From: Brevibacillus composti
GTDB taxonomy: Bacteria > Bacillota > Bacilli > Brevibacillales > Brevibacillaceae
Direction of reading: 5' to 3'
NCBI RefSeq assembly: GCF_016406105.1
Contig: NZ_CP066308.1
Location: 4,376,501-4,440,500, forward strand
Length of the DNA stretch: 64,000 nt
Shown here: in pieces, positions 365 to 13,499 of the stretch
Numbering within the stretch: the stretch's first letter is position 1
Layout: each line of letters opens with the position of its first letter
Program-made: the position numbers and the translations under genes
Notes under the pieces: generated by a model
Told to the model about the DNA's origin: nothing
Databases searched by the model: none
What the model saw: the letters and a program-made list of their open reading frames with translations, nothing else

Positions 365-946
365 ATGCTCACAGATACATCCCTCTGGCTGTTCATGATT
401 CGCATCCATATTTTGTTGGCGATCCTCTCGCTTCTCACCGGCCCGTTCGGCTTGTTGAAAAGAGTGCGGGCCAAATCGATCAAGTTTCACCGTTGGAACG
501 GCCGAGTGTACGTCTTGTCGATCCTTTACAATTTCATTCCCGGCGTCTTCGTCTCTTTCTTTGCGACGGGGGGATGGCCAAGTACAATCGGGTTTCTGAT
601 TTTAAATACCTTATGGCTGGGAACGACGATTCTGGGTTATTTGTCTATCAAAAAGCAAAGGATCATCTTGGATCGTCAATGGATGATTCGCAGCTTCTTT
701 CTTTCCTTTGCCAATATGACGATTTATATCATCGTAGCCATTACACATCATGTGATGAATGTTTCCTATGGCAATGCATACACCATCGCCGTCTGGTTAT
801 GCTGGACTCTCAATCTGCTTGTAGCAGAATGGACCATTCAACATCCCTATACAACATTCCAACAATTTACAAAAAACATGCGAAATGTTAATATTTGTAT
901 AAACAAGCTAAAGGAAAATAAAGGGATGGTCTTGATTGGAAGGTGA
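365..946 (+). CDS. DUF2306-like membrane protein, probably missing its first membrane segment
   Basis: The 193-residue product has about five hydrophobic segments and the pattern HI--AI-SLLTGPFGLLKR--AKS-KFHRW-GR-YV, typical of DUF2306 membrane proteins of unknown function. Full-length family members usually start with one more membrane helix and a periplasmic loop. That part is absent, and an in-frame stop lies just upstream of the start, so the gene is probably 5'-truncated, perhaps by the neighbouring insertion element. The last ~30 codons overlap a short repeat that recurs near position 14,000, so the original C-terminus may also be replaced. No convincing ribosome site precedes the ATG. 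Confidence 0.5.
   Translation: MLTDTSLWLFMIRIHILLAILSLLTGPFGLLKRVRAKSIKFHRWNGRVYVLSILYNFIPGVFVSFFATGGWPSTIGFLILNTLWLGTTILGYLSIKKQRIILDRQWMIRSFFLSFANMTIYIIVAITHHVMNVSYGNAYTIAVWLCWTLNLLVAEWTIQHPYTTFQQFTKNMRNVNICINKLKENKGMVLIGR
845..888 (+). repeat. Short dispersed repeat, copy 1
   Basis: About 44 bases (CCCTATACAACA, then CCAACAATTTACAAAAAACATG) recur almost unchanged at 13,998-14,040. Here the copy forms the 3' end of the DUF2306 reading frame. There it is intergenic. Confidence 0.6.
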
Positions 947-951
947 AAACC

Positions 952-2247
952 ATGGGGGAAAGTGTTAGTACTCTTCAATTTACAACCATCGGTGATGTCA
1001 TAAAGAAATATAGAGAACAATCGAATCAGAGTATTTCACTACTGGCAAAGGTGTCAGGGGTATCCAAAGGGGTTATTTCAAAGGTCGAAAGCGGGGAGAC
1101 CAAACGTCCAGAGTTAAAAACGATTATGCCTATTGCGAAAACCCTCGGTATTCCCATTGCCGAAATCATCGAACACTACATAGAAATTGATGAGCGGCCA
1201 GATGTCCTACTCGAGCTCATCCATGAGGCTATTCAGTTGACCAACATTCCATTGGTCACGAAAGTTGCTTTACGGTTCCTCCAGACCTCTTATGAAGAGA
1301 GCCATGTTTTGATAGAGCGACTGTATAACTTCGTCGTTTCTCTGACAGACAAAAGTTATCAGCTGCCCTTGTATGATGTCATCATCAAATATGCGAGGGA
1401 ACGTGGAATGCAGCGTTTCCTTGCGAGAGGGTTGATGCAAAAATTCCTCCTTCAAATGCATGATTTGGAGAAGCTGGAGGAATCCTTTCGCCTTGGAGAA
1501 GAAGCACTTCATTACACGGATTTCTTGGATCAGGAAGAAAGAGTCAACTTATACTATCAGATGGCTTTCCAAGCACATGACTTGAAAAAATATGAGAAGT
1601 GCATCGAGTTTGGAAAGATGGGACATGCCGAAGATACCACAAACAATGAAACAAAGGAGAGGGTTGCTTGGGCAATCTGCAATTCTTATTTTAGGATGAA
1701 TAACATTCTTGGATTGGAAGAACATCTTCGAATGTACGAAGAATTGGGGTATCGCTTTGTAATTGAGAGATTAAAGTATTACAAAGCAATCATACTCTCT
1801 AACAAAGAACAGTATGATGAAGCGATCCCCTTATTAAGAGAGTGTGTGAGCGAAGCAACGAAAATCAATCGATTGCATCGGGTGAACATCCTTATGGAGA
1901 CACTTCTCAAAATAAATGCCACTGATGCGATCCGAGAACTTATTGAGCACGAGGAAAATAATTTCGTATATGATTTCACCACTCCCTATAATTTTTCCGA
2001 ATTAGGAAGATACTTCAGGCAAAAAGCGGCTTTCTATATAAACCAAGGGTCGTTTGATGATGGTGTTGAAGCATATCTGCAAAGCATGCATTATTTCGCT
2101 AAAATCAATTCCCGAAAAGATATTATGGAATGTTCCGAAGAAATTCTAACTTTGTACCACGAACAAGGGAAAGATATTAAATTAGATCTTCTAGGAAGAA
2201 TAAAAGAAGTGTATAATAATGTAAACAAAGTAAATTTTAAGGAGTGA
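952..2247 (+). CDS. RNPP-type transcription regulator (HTH plus TPR peptide-receptor)
   Basis: The 431-residue protein has an XRE-type helix-turn-helix at about residues 12-72 (ISLLAKVSGVSKGVISKVESG) followed by an all-helical region of degenerate TPR repeats to the end. This is the layout of the PlcR/NprR/AimR (RNPP) family, which bind short re-imported peptides with the TPR domain and change DNA binding. The start is ATG at 952, behind GGAAGGTG; an earlier in-frame GTG at 943 has no spacing for a ribosome site. A 48-aa exported peptide gene begins six bases after its stop, which strongly supports a receptor-signal pair. Target genes cannot be told; the adjacent fragments are damaged. The exact subfamily is uncertain. 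Confidence 0.8.
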   Translation: MGESVSTLQFTTIGDVIKKYREQSNQSISLLAKVSGVSKGVISKVESGETKRPELKTIMPIAKTLGIPIAEIIEHYIEIDERPDVLLELIHEAIQLTNIPLVTKVALRFLQTSYEESHVLIERLYNFVVSLTDKSYQLPLYDVIIKYARERGMQRFLARGLMQKFLLQMHDLEKLEESFRLGEEALHYTDFLDQEERVNLYYQMAFQAHDLKKYEKCIEFGKMGHAEDTTNNETKERVAWAICNSYFRMNNILGLEEHLRMYEELGYRFVIERLKYYKAIILSNKEQYDEAIPLLRECVSEATKINRLHRVNILMETLLKINATDAIRELIEHEENNFVYDFTTPYNFSELGRYFRQKAAFYINQGSFDDGVEAYLQSMHYFAKINSRKDIMECSEEILTLYHEQGKDIKLDLLGRIKEVYNNVNKVNFKE

Positions 2248-2253
2248 AATCAA

Positions 2254-2400
2254 ATGAAGAAAAAGTTGGCTCTTCTCACAACGGTTTCTTTGTCCCTAGT
2301 CTGCTCTTTGCTCGTTGCACCGCAAGTCGGAACCCATGATCATACGTCTTCGTCAAAGCCTACAATCATAAAACCTTACACGGACGACCCCAGAGGTTGA
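2254..2400 (+). CDS. Exported signalling propeptide (Phr/NprX-like)
   Basis: The 48-codon reading frame starts with ATG behind AAGGAG, which overlaps the stop of the upstream regulator, so translation is probably coupled. The product has a lysine-rich start, a hydrophobic core (LALLTTVSLSLVCSLLVAP) and a polar tail, HTSSSKPTIIKPYTDDPRG. This is the layout of Phr, PapR and NprX pre-peptides, which are exported by Sec, trimmed and re-imported. The SSSKPTII block resembles the known NprX core SSKPDIVG; that resemblance is from memory. The mature peptide is not determinable from sequence. Confidence 0.75.
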   Translation: MKKKLALLTTVSLSLVCSLLVAPQVGTHDHTSSSKPTIIKPYTDDPRG

Positions 2401-2442
2401 TTTGTAAAGGGGATATTCCTTTCTTTTGACTTTTGTGACTCA

Positions 2443-2486
2443 AGCATTCCTTCTTCCCTATTAATAGGAGAAGGGATGCTTTTTTG
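2443..2486 (+). terminator. Rho-independent terminator of the regulator-peptide operon
   Basis: An imperfect hairpin (AGCATTCCTTCTTCC paired with GGAGAAGGGATGCT) is followed by a run of six T, 40 bases after the peptide stop. Confidence 0.8.
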
Positions 2487-2555: not shown

Positions 2556-3129
2556 CTAATCAGGCAAGTTTCCAGACCGTGTCCCTACTTCATAAGAAGG
2601 ACGCACGTGATCGTACATGAGATGCAAAATCATGCCTGTCGCCGCATGATCCAGATTATGGCAGTGGTCCATCCACATGCCCGGGTTATCCGCGATAAAT
2701 GCGACCTCATATGACTCGCCCGGCATGACGTTTAACGTATCGGTAAGCCACGGCGTTTTCACCTTCTCGCCGTTTCTCTTCAAAACTGTCATATGATGTC
2801 CGTGCAGGTGCATCGGATGCTCGGCCAAACTCTTATTCACAAACGTCGTTTTGACGATATCTCCTTCTTTGACGACGAAAGTCGGAACCCGGGGATACAC
2901 ATCTCCATTGATCGTCCATAGAAAATGAAACTTGCCGTTGTAAAATCCCATTTCGTTTCCGAGAATCATTTGGAATTCCCGATCGAATTCGTTCGCTGCT
3001 GTGACGTCGTTTGCGACGGGCTTACCGTAATCGGACGGAACGATAGGCAGTTCAAGACCTACGAGTTTAAAACGATGTGGTACGGCATCTTGCCCAATAT
3101 TGGCATAGCGTCTATTTGCCGGTGTGACT
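2556..3129 (-). pseudogene. Multicopper oxidase, C-terminal fragment
   Basis: About 190 codons encode the third cupredoxin domain of a multicopper oxidase. The type 1 and trinuclear copper ligands are visible as HPMHLHGHH and HCHNLDHAATGM. The open frame reaches up to about 3,129, where it meets an in-frame stop, and it has no start or ribosome site there. The first two cupredoxin domains are missing. The best internal ATG (2,969) would give only 137 residues. I read this as a 5'-truncated remnant, abutting a Wadjet relic. Confidence 0.8.
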
Positions 3130-3352: not shown

Positions 3353-4735
3353 TCAAAAAAACCGTTTTTTGAACTGGGAAAAGTTGTTTTCCGAGGAGCG
3401 GACGTCGCTTGGCGTTTTGGCAATGGGATGCGGATAGCGATCGTCACCCTTAATTTTTAGCTTGTAATGTTTCCCTTCTTCGGTCAATTCGAACCCGAGT
3501 TTAACGAGTTCCCGTTTTCCCTGACTCGACAGGCCGCCTGGCTCCGTCAGCACGGTTTTCACCTGAGCCAAAAACGTTTCCTTGTTATTGGTTCTTTCGT
3601 TGGCTTCCAAAATCGATTCCAGCATATTGCGGATGCGTACGGAACAGCTTCCGCTTCTGAGTTTCTCCTCGATGATCTCCAGGATGAGTTCTGCCTGCTC
3701 GCTGGCGAACAGTTCTGCTTCGGCGCCTTTGAAGATCAACGGTCTCTGCTCGTCCAACTCATTGGAAAAAAACATCTGCTGCCGTTCCCGCAAATAATAG
3801 TTTTCGGCCTCCAGGCTTTTGACCTGTTCCTGTAGTTCCTGGTTTTCCTGTAACGCGTAATCGATCAGTACGGTGTTTTCGGCTTCGCCTTCGCGGTACC
3901 GATCAATTGCCCGTTGATATTTCAAGTGTTGAACATAGGACCAGCGGCACTCGTCAGCGGTTTTCCGCGTATTTAATATGGTCTTGACGTAGTTTTGGAT
4001 TTTTAGACTAATATTTTCATCCGTGTCATTTAACAAAAATCTTTTGTAATTGTGATTTTGCCAATAGATGCCGATAGAGCCGTTGTAGGCGTTTTTCCCG
4101 TCGGTCAAGGCCCGCAGTATCGTAGAAACTTTCGTATCGGTCTCGAAATAGACATGGGCCAGCCCGGCCAGTTTCTGAGCCAGCCTTCGCGGATCCGTCA
4201 GATACGTACCGCCAAAAAACTGCTTGCTCACATAGATGACCGGCATAAAATTATACTTCTGGCAGTTGATTAAGGAGGCAAGCTCCGCGGCATTTTCTTC
4301 CGTTACCTCTTTTGGCTCCGCTTCGATACGGATGCCATCGTCATACATCGGGCCTGTTTCCCGTATGAGCAAGCTGACAATGTACGGGGTAAGCGGGATT
4401 TGGGAATACGTCGTAATATTGAAATGCGAACGCGACGATACGATGGCTACCTTGAAATCCTCAGCTCTTTTATGCCCGACCACATCTGTGCGCCATTCGC
4501 CGTCTTCGTCTTTCCGGATATGACGCACTCCGCAGTGAACGCCTCCGCTCCTCGTCACATGGACGAACTCCATTACTTCTTGATCGCTCTCATACTTCAG
4601 ACCATTCTGAATAGGCTGGTCATCGAACGTTAACGTGGTATGTGGACTGCGTTGTTGCCAGATCCGGCAAATATGTAGAAAGTGCTCAACCGTGGTATCC
4701 GTTGAAAGTGGAAGTACGGTGTTGAATCCTATCAT
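3353..4735 (-). CDS. Unrecognised 460-aa protein beside Wadjet
   Basis: The start chosen is ATG at 4,735 behind GGGGAGGAG, 25 codons inside the longest frame. The 460-residue product is soluble, with no signal or membrane segment. An alpha/beta N-terminal half (to about residue 285) includes PVIYVSKQFFGGTYL and LAGLAHVYFETD. A helical, coiled-coil-like stretch (about 300-360) follows, and the end is a basic domain containing GKRELVKLGFELTEEG and DDRYPHPIAKTPSD. That last part has the look of a small dsRBD/HicA-like fold; this is only an impression. I do not recognise the family. It lies in the same direction as Wadjet, between the Wadjet relic and intact jetD, 330 bases after the latter. Defence function is inferred only from the neighbours. 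Confidence 0.6.
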   Translation of the reverse strand: MIGFNTVLPLSTDTTVEHFLHICRIWQQRSPHTTLTFDDQPIQNGLKYESDQEVMEFVHVTRSGGVHCGVRHIRKDEDGEWRTDVVGHKRAEDFKVAIVSSRSHFNITTYSQIPLTPYIVSLLIRETGPMYDDGIRIEAEPKEVTEENAAELASLINCQKYNFMPVIYVSKQFFGGTYLTDPRRLAQKLAGLAHVYFETDTKVSTILRALTDGKNAYNGSIGIYWQNHNYKRFLLNDTDENISLKIQNYVKTILNTRKTADECRWSYVQHLKYQRAIDRYREGEAENTVLIDYALQENQELQEQVKSLEAENYYLRERQQMFFSNELDEQRPLIFKGAEAELFASEQAELILEIIEEKLRSGSCSVRIRNMLESILEANERTNNKETFLAQVKTVLTEPGGLSSQGKRELVKLGFELTEEGKHYKLKIKGDDRYPHPIAKTPSDVRSSENNFSQFKKRFF

Positions 4736-5064
4736 AGGCTGTCTCCTCCCCTTAACTAAATATAGCATGCTTGATTTGGTAGAGGGAGGCAGTTTTGTGC
4801 TTATGTTCAAACAATTTTTAGTGCTTTGCGGGGGAGGGATTTAGTCGCTAACGCTAACAACTCTATGCCGAGAACAACTAATCATTCCATGAGTTGCTCT
4901 TCTCACGGAAGCTACTCGTCCACCTAAACTCCCCCACATATCCTTGCCGAGCGCGGAAAGAAAATCTCTGTATGACACCGGTCGTTTCATTACAAAACCT
5001 TGAGCTTTTTCATCGTAAAATCCTTATCTACTAAATTATTCATCTTGGTATAATTCCAAGTTAT
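4736..5064. other. Gene-free spacer between jetD and the 460-aa gene
   Basis: I see no coding region. It contains an imperfect inverted repeat around 4,878-4,912 (GAGAACAACTAAT against ATGAGTTGCTCTTCTC) and, close to the jetD stop, a weak CTTGG/CCAAG hairpin without a convincing T-run. The promoter of the 460-aa gene should lie here but was not identified. Confidence 0.4.
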
Positions 5065-6447
5065 TCAATCGTTTATAGGCTTCAACGTTGATTTGATATC
5101 GTTATAAAGTTCATCCACCAATGATTCCTGATACACAGGTTTGCGCTGTTGAAGCGCAGTTTTCATGGTCTGGACGAATGTGGCTGGAAGTCCTTCGTTA
5201 TCCACTTCATCCACTAGCTTCTGAAGGCTGCTCCACCTCGATTCTTCTATGTGAATATCATGGATCCCGGAAATGTAGTCCTCCGGCGTGTATCGCCAAA
5301 AAATAATTCTCCCTGCTGCATAGCGACGCCATAACCGAAATGCCATCTGAAACCCTTCTGGATCGAAATCTCCAGAGTAATAAAGATCACAACCTGCTGA
5401 TACCAGACGATCACACAAGGCAAGAACCGCCAGAGAGAACTGACCGGCAGAACAGACCAAGGGAGGTAAAGACACCAAGCCATACTCATCTTCCCATCGA
5501 TCCAATATTGATGAAAAGACAGCAGGATTCTCCACTATCCAAACACGCCTGAAGGGTCCTTCCCGTAAGAACGGTTCAAAATCCGTATATCTAACCACGG
5601 TGCGAAGCGGGAGGCCAAGCACTTCTTTTTTGCTCCCGATTTCACAGCTACCTGCTGTGTTTGTACCATAGATCCCGCTTACCACAACCTGTGACGATAA
5701 ATCATCACGCAATATACGATTTTCGTAAAGAATTTGCATGACATCTTCTGAATTGGCTGGAGCGTTTCTCCCTTTCATGTAACAAAGGGCATAGAGCAAC
5801 AATCTTCCCAAAGGAGCATCCATATCAAAAGCATGTGGATTCCCTGTAATATGAGTAGACAGAACAGCGAGGCGGATATACGCTGACCGCTCCGAGCCAT
5901 CAAGATAGTTCAATGCCTTTACTACAATCAGCAACCATTGCTTGACATCTTGGGGAGACGTATTCCACCATTGCCGAACCGCCATCGCACCTGCTCCTTC
6001 GAGATGCGACAGCGCCTGTAGCCACTCGTTCACAACTAGATGGCTGCAATCGCTCGTTTCAACCGTCACTTCCTCCCAGAATGTATCCCATGCCAACTGA
6101 TTCTGACGTTGTTGCTCTTTTTTACTGATCAGTGATTCGCCGAAATACCCCTCCAAAATGTCCATCAGCGGTACTTCGGAATACTTGGTTTTGGTTAATC
6201 CTTGTACAATATCTGTTACACGGATGATTCCATCTGTGCCCGGATCATACGGATGGTTCAGCAAGCCTGCCAGTGCCTCCGCTTCTGCCGGGGTAATACT
6301 TCGCAATGTGACCTTTCCACCCAGGTACCCCATACTTCTATATTTTCGCTTACATTCCCGAAAAAGTCGGTCGTAACCTTGGGATTGCGTCCGAAAATAG
6401 GCGACCGCCTGCTGCAGAAGTTTGCGGTGATTATCTGTGGTCATCAT
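5065..6447 (-). CDS. jetD: Wadjet nuclease subunit JetD (DUF2399/Toprim type)
   Basis: JetD is the Toprim-like nuclease of Wadjet, which cuts closed circular plasmid DNA after SMC-driven loop extrusion. The 460-residue protein shows the Toprim signatures: the glutamate in VENPAVF (about residue 315) and the DxD in YYSGDFDPEG (about 370). The architecture matches the DUF2399 family (TIGR02679). The start ATGATG at 6,447 lies inside the last codons of jetC, behind GAGGAG; the 17-base overlap implies translational coupling. It is the last gene of the operon. A piece of a homologous gene lies at 3,184-3,290. Confidence 0.9.
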   Translation of the reverse strand: MMTTDNHRKLLQQAVAYFRTQSQGYDRLFRECKRKYRSMGYLGGKVTLRSITPAEAEALAGLLNHPYDPGTDGIIRVTDIVQGLTKTKYSEVPLMDILEGYFGESLISKKEQQRQNQLAWDTFWEEVTVETSDCSHLVVNEWLQALSHLEGAGAMAVRQWWNTSPQDVKQWLLIVVKALNYLDGSERSAYIRLAVLSTHITGNPHAFDMDAPLGRLLLYALCYMKGRNAPANSEDVMQILYENRILRDDLSSQVVVSGIYGTNTAGSCEIGSKKEVLGLPLRTVVRYTDFEPFLREGPFRRVWIVENPAVFSSILDRWEDEYGLVSLPPLVCSAGQFSLAVLALCDRLVSAGCDLYYSGDFDPEGFQMAFRLWRRYAAGRIIFWRYTPEDYISGIHDIHIEESRWSSLQKLVDEVDNEGLPATFVQTMKTALQQRKPVYQESLVDELYNDIKSTLKPIND

Positions 6448-9400
6448 CCATGCTCTCCTCTTCCAGGCTGACAGCCGCCTCAGAATCGCCCAACTTCTCC
6501 CACTCTTCATTCAATACATGCCAGGTTCCACCATCCCACAAGTATCGTGCTACAGATACAAAGGCGGCATTTTTCGGCCGTATCAGTTCACAGATAGACA
6601 GGCGAGAGACCGTGTCATAATCCCCCCACAACGCTTGTGAGTTCATGATGTAATTAAAGCCCAGTTGCTCAACCAGCATGAACATGTCACGAATGTTGTT
6701 TTCATCCACTCCCGCAAAGGCTTCGTCGAGAGAAATCACTCTGGGTGCCTGCGGGTTAGCTTCCATGTAGCGGGAATAGGCTGCCGAGAAAAGCGGGATA
6801 TACATGGCCATCGCTTTTTCACCGCCGCTAAATGTGAAAAAGATGCGATCTGTCAGCTCTTTATTCGCTTCTCCTTCCCGCTTGTGGAACAGCTTAAAGG
6901 TAAACCAGTGGCGATAGTCCAGAATCCTCCGCATGATTTGGTGCAAAGTTTCTCCACCGCCTTCTGCAGAGTCGGCTAGCTCTCGCTTGGCCCGTTCGAT
7001 ACGGGAACGGAAATGGTTGGTGATTCGCTCGATATCTTGCTCCCTCATTAGAGCGGGGTCTTTTCGCAAATACTCGACCAGCTCAGCCGTGCCGATCTGA
7101 GACTCGTCTTCCGCCGTGCGAGGTATCCACTTCAGGGAGAAGGTCAGTCCGCTGGAACTGTCCCGCTGCGCCATCAGTTCATTCATCCTTACTACCCATT
7201 TTTCCGCGCGGTGGATACGGTGTTTGATCACCCGTCCAACACTCTGCAAGATAACCTCTTCAAAGATTTTCCGATCCTCTGCGGTCAGATACAGGCGATG
7301 CAACTCAATCTCATGATTCAGTTTTTCCAGCAACATGTAGGGATGGCATCGCTTCCCTTCATGCTCCAACAGAACCGTGCGACGTCTTGCTCTTGTTTTC
7401 AGTTCGTTCCAATGATGGGACAGCGCAAGCGCTTCCGCTTGTTCCTCCCACGCCGCCTCCACCTTGAACTCCAAGACGTAATCGAGCGATGGCTGATACT
7501 CTAGCAAGTTGATTTGCCGTTCCGTTTCAAAGATCTTCTGCAATTGATTGTTATAGGTTTCTCGCTCACGACCTGCCATGACCGCTTGCAGCTTTTTCAC
7601 CACACGAAACGCTACGTCATCCAGTCTGTGCAATTCACCTTCGACTGGATCAATATTTTCCTTATCATCGTCAATATAACTCCAAAGTCCAAGCGCATAT
7701 TCATCAGAGAATACCTTCCACCAGGCGGTCCGCAGTTGATGACGTACTTCCGCAACTTTTTCCGCTTCGTGCAACATGTCTTGAAATTGATTGCGTCTGA
7801 TATCTGCTTCCCCGATTGCACGCGATGCAGCTTGCAAGTCGTCGGGCAGTTTGTGCAATCTTTCTGTGCAATAGCGGATTCTTTCCCGGATCTCTTCCGC
7901 TCCCTGGCTAGCCAGCATGCGTTCAATCGCCTGCAACCGTTGTTTCTGCTTGTCCACTTCTCCCTGGGCGACATTTTCTTCTCCACGCAGCCGATCCCAT
8001 TCATCGTTCGCTTCTTCCAGCATCTCCTCGGTCTCTCTTTGTCGTTGCAGCAAGTTACACTTGTCTCGAAAAATGTTTTCCAGCTTGCGCAGATTGTCCA
8101 TGTAATCCTGCATGGATAAAAGGGCGTGGCGAAGCGTTTCTACTTCCAGTGGGATCGTCAGCCCCTCCGCTGTTTGTTTCAGCAGATCACGTTCCTTATA
8201 TAGCGTTTCGATCGCTTCCCGCACACTTTGGTTGCGTCGTATTACTTCCTCCTGCCACACGGTCAACCGCTGTTTGCATTGTTCCACCGTTTGCAAAGCG
8301 TCCAGCAAATCTTTTTCGGAAGGAAAGCCCTGAAGCTCTTCGGTAAGGGTCTGGATACGTTTTTCTATATCGCTCATTTTTTGATGCAGACTATCCAGTT
8401 CCTGATCCAATTGCTCCAGACGCTGTTTCCAAGTCGCCAACTGCTCTTCACGATGCCTGCGTCTCGCTTCCTGCCCCACATACATTGACTTCTCAACGAT
8501 GGGTGCGTGTCCGCTCAAGACGCCCATTCCAAAGCTTCCGCTTGCCGTTACAAAAGCAGGTAAGGACAGCCCTGCGGTTCTTTCCGCCAAAATCGTCTGA
8601 AGGACCGCTTCAATCTCCTCCTGACCAATTCCTGTCCCTTCCAAAGGGGTTGGCATCAGCCATTCGCTGATTGTATGGGCAAACAGTTGAGGGTCTGGCA
8701 CGATTACCTTGTCTTTTACATAATCAGCCCATACGTCTACGTGCTCCAGATAAGATCTGGGGATAATCAATGCATCCAGCAGTCCCGCTTCCGTCAAAGC
8801 GGATTCTATCGCGGCACGTGCCATCTCCGGCACTTCCTGGCGAAATTCCACTGCTGCATAGAGCGGCACATGGGGAATTCCCTGCTCACTCAGCCACTCT
8901 CTGGCTTTGGCGGCTTGTTCGTGGCGGGGTGGTTCCGGATCTTTTCTGGTTTGCCACAGGCGGTATTCTGCCTCAGCTAGCTCACGTTCCCGTTGCCTTG
9001 TCTGGAGCAGCATTTGCACATCTCCGTAGAGATCGCGCAAATCCTGGCGCAATAGCTGATAGGCGTGAACGATCGGTTCTCTAACCGTTTCATAGCGGTC
9101 TGACGCTTCAAAATGAGCTATCCGCCGAATCGTTTCTCTTACTGTTTCGGGAGAAAGCCGAAGCTCACTCACCTCTCCCTGCCATTGATGCAACAATCCG
9201 ATCAATTTCTCTTTTTCTTCCTCTACTATAAGCTCCCACTTTTCTTTTTCCTGTTGGTAGGCATCCACCTGTTTTTGAGCGGCTCCCAGCGTACGCTCCG
9301 CTTCCATGCGTATCCGTTCCGCTTCTGCTGTCTTTACAGCCTGATGATGAGTCGTCTGCAGCCGGTTTCGATACTCTCTTGCCTCCTTTTGCCACAGTTC

Positions 9401-10693
9401 CATCGAATATCCTTGCTGCGCCTTTTCAAACTCCCTACGGGCCATATCATGCGCGGGAAATTCGTTTTCCACCACCGCCAGCTCCAGATCTTCGAGCAGA
9501 TCGGTCATCTGATCCCCGGCCTCTTTGATATTCATGCCTATTTCTTCAATAGTTCGTCGCAACTGAATTATCTTTCCCCGCTTGGCATCACTTTCCTTCT
9601 GCTTTTCCTCAAATCGCCGTTGTTCCTGTTGCAACTGCTGCTCGACTATGATCCGCTCTGCTTCCGCCTTGGCGATATCGTGATCCTTCAATCGCTCATG
9701 CTCTTCCGCAAGGGTTTGCTGCTCGATTCTGAAGGCGTCCAATTGGGACTGTAGACGAGCCCGTTCCTCTTCCTTTTGGACAAGCAGGCGCCGATACTCC
9801 TCCACTTTTTTTTGTGCAGCTCGAGCCGCGTTGACGGCATCGGTCAAGCCCTTCGCTTTATCGTACCAGATAAACCTGTTGTATTCGGTATACTCCTTGG
9901 AAATTCGTGACAATGCCTTCTGGTCCCGCTCCAATTGTTCCAGTTGCAGTTTTGTACGGTCCATGGATTCAATCGCCTCGGACAAAGGCCGCAGCTCTTC
10001 GTCAGAGAGGCCAGGCAGGGAATTTTCCAGGATATTGTAGATTACAGTCGGTTTAAAGTCTTTGGACAGTTTCGGACTCCGCAAATGAATCAGCAGCTTG
10101 ATCAAATCTTCATAGGCCTCCAATGACGGGAACCCAAAAAGAAGTTTGTTCACCATCTCCGCGTATTCACTTTGTGAGAAAACTACCCTGCCCCCGGGTC
10201 CGATCTCCTTCTCCAGCTCCCTTTTTCCCAGCGGAATGCGCTCTTGCTCCTGCTTTTCTGCATTGTATACCAGCCGGTACAAAAACAGGTCATGCCCGAT
10301 TCTTCTGTTGTCTTGAATGGAAAAGCCCCAGAAGTCCATCTGCGCGTTGCGCTTGGCCCTCAAACCGATCCCGATCGTTAAAAACTGATTGGTGTACGGT
10401 TTGCAAAATTCGAGATACAGATAGCCGGTTCTCTCATCACGACCGGTTACTTCCTTTTCACCCAGCAGGTAATCTTCCATCCGCCTTGCCTTGGAGCCAA
10501 AGGGGTCGAGTCGATCCGGGCTTTTTTTGCCATCTAGCACAACTGGCAGCAAGCTTTGCATCGTTACCGACTTACCGGAGCCATTGGTCCCACGTAGCAA
10601 CAGCTTGCCATCGGCAAATTCAAAACACTCGTCGTCGTAATACCAGAAATTGACCAACCCCGCTCTGGACAGCTGCCATCTATTCGATTCCAT
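6431..10693 (-). CDS. jetC: Wadjet SMC-like ATPase JetC
   Basis: This 1,420-residue SMC/MukB-like ATPase is the motor of Wadjet. Walker A is at residues 35-42 (GTNGSGKS). Two very long charged coiled-coil regions surround a central globular part (about 590-760). The C-terminal head has the signature FSGGEKAMAMYIP and Walker B RVISLDEAFAGVDENN (about 1,300-1,345). Length and layout fit the TIGR02680 family. It overlaps jetB by 14 bases and jetD by 17, the tight packing expected for subunits made in fixed ratio. No frameshift was found. Confidence 0.92.
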   Translation of the reverse strand: MESNRWQLSRAGLVNFWYYDDECFEFADGKLLLRGTNGSGKSVTMQSLLPVVLDGKKSPDRLDPFGSKARRMEDYLLGEKEVTGRDERTGYLYLEFCKPYTNQFLTIGIGLRAKRNAQMDFWGFSIQDNRRIGHDLFLYRLVYNAEKQEQERIPLGKRELEKEIGPGGRVVFSQSEYAEMVNKLLFGFPSLEAYEDLIKLLIHLRSPKLSKDFKPTVIYNILENSLPGLSDEELRPLSEAIESMDRTKLQLEQLERDQKALSRISKEYTEYNRFIWYDKAKGLTDAVNAARAAQKKVEEYRRLLVQKEEERARLQSQLDAFRIEQQTLAEEHERLKDHDIAKAEAERIIVEQQLQQEQRRFEEKQKESDAKRGKIIQLRRTIEEIGMNIKEAGDQMTDLLEDLELAVVENEFPAHDMARREFEKAQQGYSMELWQKEAREYRNRLQTTHHQAVKTAEAERIRMEAERTLGAAQKQVDAYQQEKEKWELIVEEEKEKLIGLLHQWQGEVSELRLSPETVRETIRRIAHFEASDRYETVREPIVHAYQLLRQDLRDLYGDVQMLLQTRQRERELAEAEYRLWQTRKDPEPPRHEQAAKAREWLSEQGIPHVPLYAAVEFRQEVPEMARAAIESALTEAGLLDALIIPRSYLEHVDVWADYVKDKVIVPDPQLFAHTISEWLMPTPLEGTGIGQEEIEAVLQTILAERTAGLSLPAFVTASGSFGMGVLSGHAPIVEKSMYVGQEARRRHREEQLATWKQRLEQLDQELDSLHQKMSDIEKRIQTLTEELQGFPSEKDLLDALQTVEQCKQRLTVWQEEVIRRNQSVREAIETLYKERDLLKQTAEGLTIPLEVETLRHALLSMQDYMDNLRKLENIFRDKCNLLQRQRETEEMLEEANDEWDRLRGEENVAQGEVDKQKQRLQAIERMLASQGAEEIRERIRYCTERLHKLPDDLQAASRAIGEADIRRNQFQDMLHEAEKVAEVRHQLRTAWWKVFSDEYALGLWSYIDDDKENIDPVEGELHRLDDVAFRVVKKLQAVMAGRERETYNNQLQKIFETERQINLLEYQPSLDYVLEFKVEAAWEEQAEALALSHHWNELKTRARRRTVLLEHEGKRCHPYMLLEKLNHEIELHRLYLTAEDRKIFEEVILQSVGRVIKHRIHRAEKWVVRMNELMAQRDSSSGLTFSLKWIPRTAEDESQIGTAELVEYLRKDPALMREQDIERITNHFRSRIERAKRELADSAEGGGETLHQIMRRILDYRHWFTFKLFHKREGEANKELTDRIFFTFSGGEKAMAMYIPLFSAAYSRYMEANPQAPRVISLDEAFAGVDENNIRDMFMLVEQLGFNYIMNSQALWGDYDTVSRLSICELIRPKNAAFVSVARYLWDGGTWHVLNEEWEKLGDSEAAVSLEEESMDDDHR

Positions 10694-11897
10694 CTGGCTT
10701 CTCGTCCCCTTCCTTTCGCTTCTTTACGTAATCATTTGGATAATGGGATGTGATTCTCCCCAATCGTGGCATGATAACGATCAGTTGTTCATTTTCATCC
10801 CGACAAGCCATTCCCCCTGCCTCCATCTCTTCCAGCAACTGATGCGCCAACGGTTTGGTTTGCATCTCGCGCAACGTTTTCCCCCATCCATGTCCATGTT
10901 CCGCATGGCATTGCTCCAGCAGCAATTCGTAATCCACTTGTGTCAAAAGTAGCCGACCGTCATTCTGCAAGGGAAAAGTACCCGCTTCAATCGCTGCTCG
11001 AACCGTACCGGCAAAAAAGAAAACCACATCGCTAATCGCTCTGGTGTCTGGATAAAGTGTGCTTCCCATGCTTCTCCCATGATGAACCAGCATCGCATCT
11101 TGTCCATAGATCTCCAAATCCAGTCCCACTGTCTCTTCAAAATCCCGCGCTATTACGTTTCGCTGGTTGCGAAGATACGTCCAATCCCCATCCGCCATCT
11201 CTTCCTCCCGTATTCCGGGCGTTAGCAATAATTGACGGTATACGCGATGTCTACGTGCCAATGTTTCATTTTCAGTGTCAACGATTTTCAATAGATCCTC
11301 TGTCGTCTCAAATTGCATCAAATCGCGCGGATACGCTCGCAGAAAATATTTAACCAAAGGGGTGGGTTCATACAAGGCATCCGTTTGATCAGAAGCAGCA
11401 AACCCCTGATCGTCGCCATCCACAACAAGCAGCAGCTCCCATTCACGGGCAAGCTGCAGAACACGAACCAGTGACTTGCGATGATCGTAATTGGTCCAAT
11501 CCACCGCACCGGGCCCTGGATAGGTGACTTTTATTTCTTCGCATATATCAGAAAGCAGGAATTGATCGTCGATGCTTTTTGCCTCCAGAAACGCCATTAA
11601 CAGAGAAAAAAACACATAATCCCGGACTTCCGCAAACCCAGGCAACCCCATCCACGGTTGTATTTGTCTGCTCACGAACTTCTCCAGTTTGACAAATTCG
11701 TAATGGATCAGCAGACGAAAACCCAGTTTTTCATTAAAAAAGGGTCTAAGTACGTGCTCTCGTTCACGAACCGCCTGATACCAGACCATGTCGCTACGCG
11801 GAATCCAGAATCTCTCTAGCAATTCCCATGCGGCTTGCTGAGCCAATTCATCAAAACGAGGCGTATACTTGTTGTGGATACGTTCAATCTCGCTCAT
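10680..11897 (-). CDS. jetB: Wadjet kite-like subunit JetB (DUF2398 type)
   Basis: The 405-residue protein matches the DUF2398 family (TIGR02678), recognisable by FWIPRSDMVWYQAVREREHVLRP-F split across the N-terminal 60 residues and by FFSLLMAFLEAKSIDDQFLLSDI. In Wadjet the JetB subunit is the MukE-like winged-helix partner of the kleisin JetA and the ATPase JetC. The start codon overlaps the jetA stop by four bases (ATGA). The protein has no catalytic motif, as expected for a structural subunit. Confidence 0.88.
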   Translation of the reverse strand: MSEIERIHNKYTPRFDELAQQAAWELLERFWIPRSDMVWYQAVREREHVLRPFFNEKLGFRLLIHYEFVKLEKFVSRQIQPWMGLPGFAEVRDYVFFSLLMAFLEAKSIDDQFLLSDICEEIKVTYPGPGAVDWTNYDHRKSLVRVLQLAREWELLLVVDGDDQGFAASDQTDALYEPTPLVKYFLRAYPRDLMQFETTEDLLKIVDTENETLARRHRVYRQLLLTPGIREEEMADGDWTYLRNQRNVIARDFEETVGLDLEIYGQDAMLVHHGRSMGSTLYPDTRAISDVVFFFAGTVRAAIEAGTFPLQNDGRLLLTQVDYELLLEQCHAEHGHGWGKTLREMQTKPLAHQLLEEMEAGGMACRDENEQLIVIMPRLGRITSHYPNDYVKKRKEGDEKPDGIE

Positions 11898-13459
11898 CTC
11901 TTCACCTTGCTTTCATCCATAAAGTAAAGCACATAATCGGGCATTTCCAGAACGCCGTCCGTGCACTGCAAACGCACCCGTTCTCCTGTACCAGAATCGA
12001 CCACTTTAAAGCGTCTGCCATTGTCTGTCTTTCCTTCACCTGCTGGTGACGCCATGCTTTTGCCGATCCATCCAAGCAAGGTTTGCCGCACAAAAGGCTC
12101 GATGACCGGAAGTTCCCGCACACTTACCCGATTCCCTGCAAATATCTGATTCAATCGGGCCTGCCGCTCCGCCTTCAGCTTCAAATGCTCAGCCAGCATC
12201 GCTTTTTTCTCTTCATCTTTCGAGTCGATTTTGCTTGGTCTCGTCCTCTCTCGATACTCGTGGATGCGCGGTTTCACCACATATTCAGCTGGCTTCATAT
12301 CCCAGATGGTGGAGTAAATGTCTTCTGTCGTCTTCGGTGATTCCACCCACATGTGCCTCATACGGGAGATGCCGAATACCGCTGCCGATAAGCAATGAGC
12401 CTCTTTCACACTTTCCGTTGAGGCAAACCATTTTGCCAGATAGAGGTAATCGGCCCTGCGACTCCGCATGCTGGATTGCCGTTCCCCCATTCGCTGCGCA
12501 TAACGGGCAATGCGGCGTATCGCTTCGTTTGTCTCCCGCTGCAAGTCTTCCAGGTCACTACCCCGGCCGCTTCCGTCTCCCAGAAACCATTGCCAAATCC
12601 CTTCCCACTGATCGTAATAGCGCTTTACTAGATCTTCCTTGACAAGCGCTGCCGTATCAAAACGGGGAATTGAGACCTCGTAACTTGCTACCCGCTGGAG
12701 AATGTCATCCAATAGGTCGCGATTTACCTGTGCGAGCAAGCCTTCTATCTGGTAAGAGCTACGCTGCAATCCCATCATGAAGCGTCTTAGGTAGTCGGTC
12801 ACTTTATCTTTGTAGAGGAGAAACTGCTCCGTCATCATCACGTCTTCTATCTGCACGCTATCAAGGTTTGCCATATAATCCCGGGCGTTATTGGTTACCT
12901 TACGAAACAATTCATACAATTCGGACCACCAGTGATACAGTTTCTCGTCCGTCCAATCTTCCATCTCAAAACGCGGACGCTCTCCTGGCTTAGGAAAGGA
13001 GACACGACCCAGCCGTGTCAAAAATCTCAATGTTTCTACCAGTTTGTCAAACTGGGTAGCCTCCAGCGAGCCACCGTATGTATCACCCATCTCCTCCAGA
13101 TCTTCGATTAACCGCTCAAACTTGATGGTGTATGGGCTAGCTTGATAGCGATACCTTTTTTTCTTGAAATCTTCTATTTTGTTCACCTTGCCTGATTGTT
13201 TTCGCTGCAGGTTTCCCCAATCGTATAACTGCTGCAAATCCAGCTGAAGCAGGTCTTCGGTGTACGCGGATGCCTCACTGGGCTCCATACGTTCTTTTAC
13301 CGCTTGCAATATTTCTTCCGGTCTTAGCCAGTAACGAAGCCGCTGTTGTTGCTCATAGAAATAGCGCAAAATTGGCCTATAGCGATATGCGTTTTCTACT
13401 GACAGGTATTTGGCTTCATTTATGGCTTTGTAGTTGATAAGGGAACGATTATTAGACAA
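11894..13459 (-). CDS. jetA: Wadjet kleisin-like subunit JetA (DUF2397 type)
   Basis: The first gene of the operon encodes a DUF2397-family protein (TIGR02677), the MukF-like kleisin that bridges the SMC heads. I place the start at TTG 13,459, because GGGGGAGG lies seven bases upstream; the nine codons before it contain the ribosome site itself. This gives 521 residues. An N-terminal winged-helix-like part precedes long helices (about 90-330) and a C-terminal domain. The set DUF2397-DUF2398-SMC-DUF2399 defines one Wadjet subtype, often listed as type III; the number is from memory. Confidence 0.88.
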   Translation of the reverse strand: MSNNRSLINYKAINEAKYLSVENAYRYRPILRYFYEQQQRLRYWLRPEEILQAVKERMEPSEASAYTEDLLQLDLQQLYDWGNLQRKQSGKVNKIEDFKKKRYRYQASPYTIKFERLIEDLEEMGDTYGGSLEATQFDKLVETLRFLTRLGRVSFPKPGERPRFEMEDWTDEKLYHWWSELYELFRKVTNNARDYMANLDSVQIEDVMMTEQFLLYKDKVTDYLRRFMMGLQRSSYQIEGLLAQVNRDLLDDILQRVASYEVSIPRFDTAALVKEDLVKRYYDQWEGIWQWFLGDGSGRGSDLEDLQRETNEAIRRIARYAQRMGERQSSMRSRRADYLYLAKWFASTESVKEAHCLSAAVFGISRMRHMWVESPKTTEDIYSTIWDMKPAEYVVKPRIHEYRERTRPSKIDSKDEEKKAMLAEHLKLKAERQARLNQIFAGNRVSVRELPVIEPFVRQTLLGWIGKSMASPAGEGKTDNGRRFKVVDSGTGERVRLQCTDGVLEMPDYVLYFMDESKVKR

Positions 13460-13499
13460 AAAATTACCTCCCCCGATTTTCCACATGAAGTGACCCTGA

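Follow-up and report, generated by a model that had tools for sequence, protein, structure and literature searches.

A chromosomal receptor-propeptide pair of Brevibacillus composti, a probable member of RRNPP subfamily 08, and a candidate operator before spo0E

The receptor and propeptide genes

A 64,000-nucleotide stretch of the Brevibacillus composti chromosome (NZ_CP066308.1, positions 4,376,501 to 4,440,500; hereafter the window) carries a gene for a regulator with a helix-turn-helix (HTH) domain and tetratricopeptide-like repeats (TPR), followed after a gap of six bases by a 48-codon open reading frame (ORF) for a putative propeptide. A first-pass annotation made from the letters alone had described this arrangement, and our analysis bears it out. 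We think it probable, from sequence comparison, that the two genes form a chromosomal quorum-sensing receptor-propeptide pair of the RRNPP type catalogued as cluster 8 or subfamily 08 (Paenibacillaceae). The features of the cassette, in window positions, are as follows:

866..894, + strand, weak promoter match of sigma-70 type, 5' of the receptor gene (pattern scan)
952..2247, + strand, receptor/regulator, 431 amino acids (aa) from ATG, with an N-terminal HTH_3 domain and then nine TPR-like helix pairs
2239..2244, + strand, Shine-Dalgarno sequence AAGGAG, nine bases 5' of the propeptide ATG, read directly
2254..2400, + strand, propeptide ORF, 48 codons, with a basic start, a hydrophobic core and a polar tail
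2380..2397, + strand, TDDPRG, conserved at the propeptide C-terminus and probably the mature signal peptide (length presumed)
2442..2481, + strand, terminator-like hairpin with a T run, closing the cassette (-21.3 kcal/mol, z -3.8)

The receptor may start at GTG 943 or ATG 952 and stops at TGA 2245-2247; a gene for a DUF2306 membrane protein (365-946, + strand) lies directly 5' of it on the same strand and overlaps the GTG option by four bases. The scan that gave the promoter match found six sigma-70-like matches, a number not clearly in excess of shuffled sequence (mean 3.9, standard deviation 1.9). The N-terminal domain matched HTH_3 of Pfam (E = 1.8e-10), and no Pfam TPR model passed on the single receptor sequence; a profile of 55 family sequences matched consensus-TPR proteins (E = 6.5e-24) and the HTH domain of SinR (E = 5.4e-11). 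The AlphaFold2 model of the receptor, built on an alignment of three sequences, consists of the HTH domain and 18 further helices that form nine pairs, with a mean predicted local distance difference test score (pLDDT) of 87. Five receptors of this family are encoded in the genome, the window copy among them.

The propeptide satisfies a hydrophobic-core rule of our own making, which 30% of resampled sequences satisfy too. Receptor and propeptide were compared with the 75%-identical orthologue in genome G008. The two receptors differ by a nonsynonymous divergence (dN) of 0.144 and a synonymous divergence (dS) of 1.40, giving a dN/dS of about 0.1, and the propeptides by a dN of 0.275 and a dS of 0.845 over 48 codons. 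The segment TDDPRG is identical in both propeptides, the orthologue tail otherwise reading LSQATKIKVNTDDPRG, and some conservation extends back to about residue -10. The first-pass annotation had called the tail NprX-like on account of its SSSKPTIIKP segment and had proposed a search for conserved tail residues in homologous cassettes. Such residues exist, but they lie at the extreme C-terminus; SSSKPTII is not kept even in the G008 orthologue, and we rejected the NprX core as the signal. The hairpin at 2442-2481 was not picked up by a separate pattern scan. The propeptide equivalents on plasmid pBRLA33 and in phage Sundance are annotated as hypothetical protein.

Conservation of the pair and its family assignment

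Propeptides were counted at homologous loci by a rule that called for a signal-like ORF with its start in the interval -170 to +60 relative to the receptor stop and a D/E/N-P motif at its end. There were 115 distinct receptor ends, and the 114 with more than 200 nucleotides downstream were used. A propeptide-like ORF was present at 100 of the 114 loci (85 with a strict [DEN]Pxx ending, 15 with a looser one such as PEPW) and absent by script at 14, while the rate of signal plus motif in first-order Markov resamplings of this DNA was 0.2% per locus. Hand inspection brings the count to 101 of 114: the script had misplaced the receptor end of L002, a paralogue in the same genome and one of the 14, whose propeptide, read by hand, ends LDADPGH. 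Because many of the copies are closely related, the 114 loci are not independent. The small propeptide gene is genuine and goes beyond chance, which upholds the first-pass proposal of an RRNPP-type receptor with its propeptide. Homologous regulators lacking any conserved peptide gene downstream would have refuted that proposal, and the homologues proved to have one.

The conserved part of the peptides is their C-terminus. Among 99 listed peptides there is P at position -3 in 85, D at -4 in 61, G at -2 in 56, Y at -7 in 51, and one of W, H, Y, G or F at -1 in 96; those of relatives end mostly in DPG followed by H, Y, W or F, and those of the window and its nearest orthologue in DPRG. In a tree of 109 receptor proteins the C-terminal class of the peptide tracks the receptor, as expected of a receptor-ligand pair, with the window and G008 copies clustering at a support of 0.999, joined by a B. 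borstelensis copy at 0.998, beside groups whose peptides end DDPGH and DNPQG. When viral contigs were searched, the single window protein as query gave no match and the family alignment gave five loci: four further contigs, each with a propeptide (4/4), and L171, which is Sundance again. Sigma-H promoters 5' of the propeptide were not in excess, with 3 of 99 for the loci and 7 of 99 for a control stretch, and an unguided motif search at the loci recovered mainly terminators.

Several loci depart from the common layout. Two Paenibacillus plasmid copies among the 14 (L147, L148) have small ORFs with other tails; downstream of a clade of four receptors (L124, L126, L128, L129) no motif-bearing propeptide was found, and these may be orphans or have another layout; and the propeptides of L113 and L117 carry the DPDW motif twice per chain.

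Assignment to subfamily 08 came by way of pBRLA33, a plasmid of B. laterosporus LMG 15441, which encodes a receptor like that of the window (41% identity) with a peptide ending YDPGY. Just 3' of this peptide gene lies the gene for a 470-residue receptor-like protein with a sub-threshold TPR match, the end of which is overlapped by a small ORF ending EHGVGG, of the AloP type; mature AloP13 is SHGRGG (PMC7425212). Plasmid DNA of the same strain is stated to hold one AloR-AloP system and one novel cluster-8 system (PMC10075063). Given that the EHGVGG system is AloP-like, the window type may be taken, together with that statement, as cluster 8.

The window pair shares several traits of subfamily 08 as the sources describe them. 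The receptor, at 431 aa with HTH and TPR, falls within the 250-500 aa given for the subfamily, and the propeptide, at 48 aa and 6 bp away, within the 10-100 aa given for an adjacent propeptide. PMC10075063 also takes Sec-dependent secretion, judged by SignalP, as a criterion; what bears on it here is the hydrophobic-core rule above, which 30% of resampled sequences satisfy as well. The nine TPR-like pairs, the hydrophobic core and the conserved C-terminus of the propeptide, the DPG-type peptides of the family and its occurrence on chromosomes, plasmids and phages are further likenesses, and DPG peptides are reported for subfamily 08, which is placed beside AloR and AimR (PMC12700828). Two points weigh on the other side: the window peptide ends DDPRG, not DPG, and the assignment is indirect, passing through pBRLA33. 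The window copy also differs from the subfamily in having no adjoining spo0E.

spo0E neighbours and candidates for operator and target

A spo0E-like gene, presumed to delay sporulation, adjoins the receptor at 41 of 119 loci, downstream on the same strand at 31 (one of them a fusion) and divergent upstream at 10; PF09388 was confirmed for three of these neighbours. The loci include the G008 orthologue, the phages SecTim467 and Sundance, three plasmids and four IMG/VR contigs, and all six full-length copies examined in phages and viral contigs adjoin spo0E. The pBRLA33 copy has no adjoining spo0E in its annotation. Viral RRNPP systems have been described beside spo0E or abrB (PMC10075063), and AloR13 drives a spo0E gene that its peptide shuts off (PMC7425212). 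In the accessible open-licence literature we found no account of the present module (Brevibacillus phage Spo0E, TPR-Spo0E fusion) beyond PMC7425212, PMC10075063, PMC12700828 and PMC9765709.

By analogy with the family, the propeptide would be exported and its last six or seven residues (TDDPRG or YTDDPRG) cleaved free; an oligopeptide permease would then bring the peptide back into the cell, where its binding in the receptor's TPR groove would alter DNA binding. The regulated gene in relatives is likely the adjacent spo0E-like phosphatase gene, so that the signal would tune the timing of sporulation by cell density.

At many spo0E-linked loci, a 24-base motif, TTGTCGWAWTTTGTARAACGTTTC, was seen by eye downstream of the propeptide terminator and followed by a promoter-like TGGTAAAATAAT. 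With up to three mismatches it occurs at 19 places in 79 genomes, against one for the reversed pattern. Thirteen of these places have spo0E downstream, all in receptor-bearing genomes: nine with a receptor upstream, three without one in the fetched stretch, and one (L194) with almost no upstream sequence. At the six where no spo0E was found, four are in receptor-less genomes, one has a receptor upstream and one does not. With up to six mismatches, the motif lies within 700 nucleotides at 20 of 31 loci with spo0E downstream and at 2 of 77 loci without spo0E.

The motif was also sought before spo0E genes as such. In 11 receptor-less genomes (no receptor match at E <= 1e-30), which have 42 spo0E genes, none of the 30 examined had the motif within six mismatches, and one had it at seven; shuffled sequences gave about 10. 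Thirty of the 89 spo0E genes in 10 receptor-bearing genomes were examined likewise, and here the five receptor-adjacent genes had 2, 3, 3, 6 and 7 mismatches, 15 AloR-linked genes 6-11, and ten other genes 3-12. Since the motif stands at many receptor-linked spo0E genes and was not found, at up to six mismatches, before the 30 from receptor-less genomes, it is tied, as judged from these comparisons, to this receptor family and does not go with spo0E generally.

No spo0E was found in 20 kb around the window copy (best E = 0.066), and the motif is not beside it, so that a function here needs another target. Two loci elsewhere in this genome (G000) stand out:

G000:C1:3406242-3406367, - strand, lone spo0E (L150), with a perfect motif at 3406632-3406655
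G000:C1:738431-739828, - strand, receptor-Spo0E fusion paralogue (L003), a single in-frame ORF

The perfect match before the lone spo0E, which no receptor adjoins, is the sole one within three mismatches in the genome, and this gene would be the most likely remaining target in this strain; we put it forward as the best candidate, though on balance not a probable one, for action in trans of the window receptor or one of its paralogues. The fusion paralogue has an HTH_3 domain (E = 4.6e-8) and a C-terminal SpoOE-like domain (E = 5.8e-10), and no propeptide was found for it. The fused form was seen only in this genome among 60 genomes, and among 26 of the genus, and its nearest relative (52%, G024) has receptor, propeptide and spo0E as separate genes; the fusion may be a deletion product. 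Our tentative proposal, which we rate as less likely than not, is that subfamily-08 systems are sporulation timers acting through a conserved operator like TTGTCGWAWTTTGTARAACGTTTC before spo0E, that the window cassette has lost its target in cis and been rewired in trans to the spo0E gene 0.97 Mb away, and that the fusion protein might detect a peptide and itself act directly on Spo0A~P.

Several observations weigh against this proposal. No spo0E was found in the fetched flanks at 77 of the 119 loci (one further locus was too short), and at 11 of the 31 where spo0E lies downstream the best motif match has seven mismatches or more. Two genomes (G036, G037) account for ten of the 13 motif-spo0E places, and the four matches in receptor-less genomes, each with three mismatches, do not stand before spo0E. 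The distant spo0E may serve any of the five receptors, and the receptor is a putative binder of the motif.

A different protein might indeed bind there. The Spo0A box is TGTCGAA, and the 24-base motif resembles what we take to be two such boxes; if it were a pair of Spo0A boxes, spo0E would be under feedback by Spo0A and the distant spo0E would be no target of the receptor. Consistent with this, two TGTCGAA-like heptamers 10 bp apart lie downstream of the propeptide at 13 of 22 loci with spo0E downstream (p <= 0.05); on repetition the pair was found at 12 of 22, in neither of two controls (0 of 22 each), and at 6 of 69 peptide loci without a detected spo0E, and at divergent loci it lies on the spo0E strand in 9 of 10. 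However, the 24-base form is missing (at up to six mismatches) before all 30 spo0E genes examined from receptor-less genomes, which presumably have Spo0A and to which the heptamer-pair test was not applied, and it is weak before the AloR-linked genes. We regard Spo0A binding as a serious possibility, if somewhat improbable on balance.

The window cassette could also be a decaying leftover that lost its spo0E by rearrangement and regulates nothing, an account compatible with subfamily-08 identity; the alternatives are not all exclusive of our main reading. Besides the missing spo0E and motif, the cassette has a transposase gene and the truncated gene of a multicopper oxidase at its flanks, and copies in some relatives seem truncated or frameshifted. 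Yet both genes are open, with a Shine-Dalgarno sequence and a terminator-like hairpin, and the receptor has the low dN/dS given above, a figure that recent decay would escape. We consider decay unlikely.

Within its catalogued family, subfamily 08, the pair is nothing out of the ordinary; what is new and open to test is that a peptide has been defined and that candidates for an operator and for a target in trans have been named. Subfamily 08 is so far known, in the sources available, from genome surveys only, and TDDPRG together with the candidate operator and target makes direct testing possible. Since related modules occur on Brevibacillus phages (with spo0E) and on some plasmids, such a test would also matter for the published idea that peptide signals let phages set the timing of host sporulation. 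Of three phages (L142-L144), SecTim467 and Sundance have all three genes, for receptor, propeptide and spo0E. Jenst belongs to the species of SecTim467, but its receptor gene measures just 501 nucleotides, and the annotation of the stretch examined shows no spo0E.

Other peptide systems and the neighbouring genes

AloR-AloP of Paenibacillus polymyxa comes from the same bacterial family and shares with the window family the layout, the many copies per genome, the C-terminal mature peptide, and a spo0E-like gene downstream, which is the validated target of Alo13 (PMC7425212). Profile comparison shows distant similarity between the AloR-like family and that of the window receptor (97.4% probability, 14% identity). 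However, with the pBRLA33 AloR-like protein standing in for AloR13, the best BLAST match to the window receptor had an E value of 0.23 and the longest alignment 68 columns, short of the identity of at least 30% over at least 80% that serves as the criterion in PMC10075063; a search of this genome with that protein gave no match at E = 1e-20, and AloP peptides are of the HGxGG type, unlike the DP-xx type here. We therefore rejected AloR membership of the window receptor, for want of a useful BLAST match, as very improbable. AimR-AimP (arbitrium) shares the TPR fold class, and the DPG motif is reported as common to it and subfamily 08 (PMC12700828); it steers phage lysis-lysogeny, whereas 41 of 119 relatives of the window receptor adjoin spo0E.

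Fold comparison does not separate the RRNPP subfamilies: LGN-type TPR proteins came first, and NprR, Rap, PlcR and AimR are among the matches listed. A single-sequence search of the PDB with the window receptor matched only SinR, and NprR is not among the best 60 of 172 profile-search matches listed. A viral fold library, searched with the three-sequence receptor model, gave one unnamed protein and generic TPR proteins.

NprX has a conserved SKP-type core. That the window pair is a homologue of NprR-NprX (Bacillus cereus group), with a mature peptide from the SSSKPTII region, we dismiss as most improbable: the HTH-TPR receptor and downstream propeptide are alike, but the peptide core and the place of the conserved part differ, the SKP segment is missing from the orthologue, and the NprR fold score is not discriminating because the matches (LGN at 18.7 above NprR, Rap at 15.3 equal, AimR at 13.2 below) are all generic TPR matches.

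Beyond the cassette lie a gene remnant and a defence system:

2556-3127, - strand, multicopper oxidase remnant between cassette and Wadjet, C-terminal, with about 190 residues left of about 702
5065-13486, - strand, Wadjet type II JetA2B2C2D2 (JetD, JetC, JetB, JetA), transcribed towards the cassette

The first-pass annotation had suggested that the pair might report cell density to this defence island. We found no support for such a role: Wadjet is convergent, the hairpin and the oxidase remnant stand between, the best motif match in the window has seven mismatches, and the neighbour in relatives is spo0E. No connection between cassette and Wadjet was found in the window; defence genes beside relatives were not systematically searched. 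In G008 a multicopper oxidase fragment (C1:722897-723136) with 90% identity to the remnant sits close to another copy of the receptor. The ORF after JetD (3353-4810, - strand) matches HEC-07 of PADLOC weakly (8.3e-8), and a stretch at its C-terminus resembles HicA (1.7e-5).
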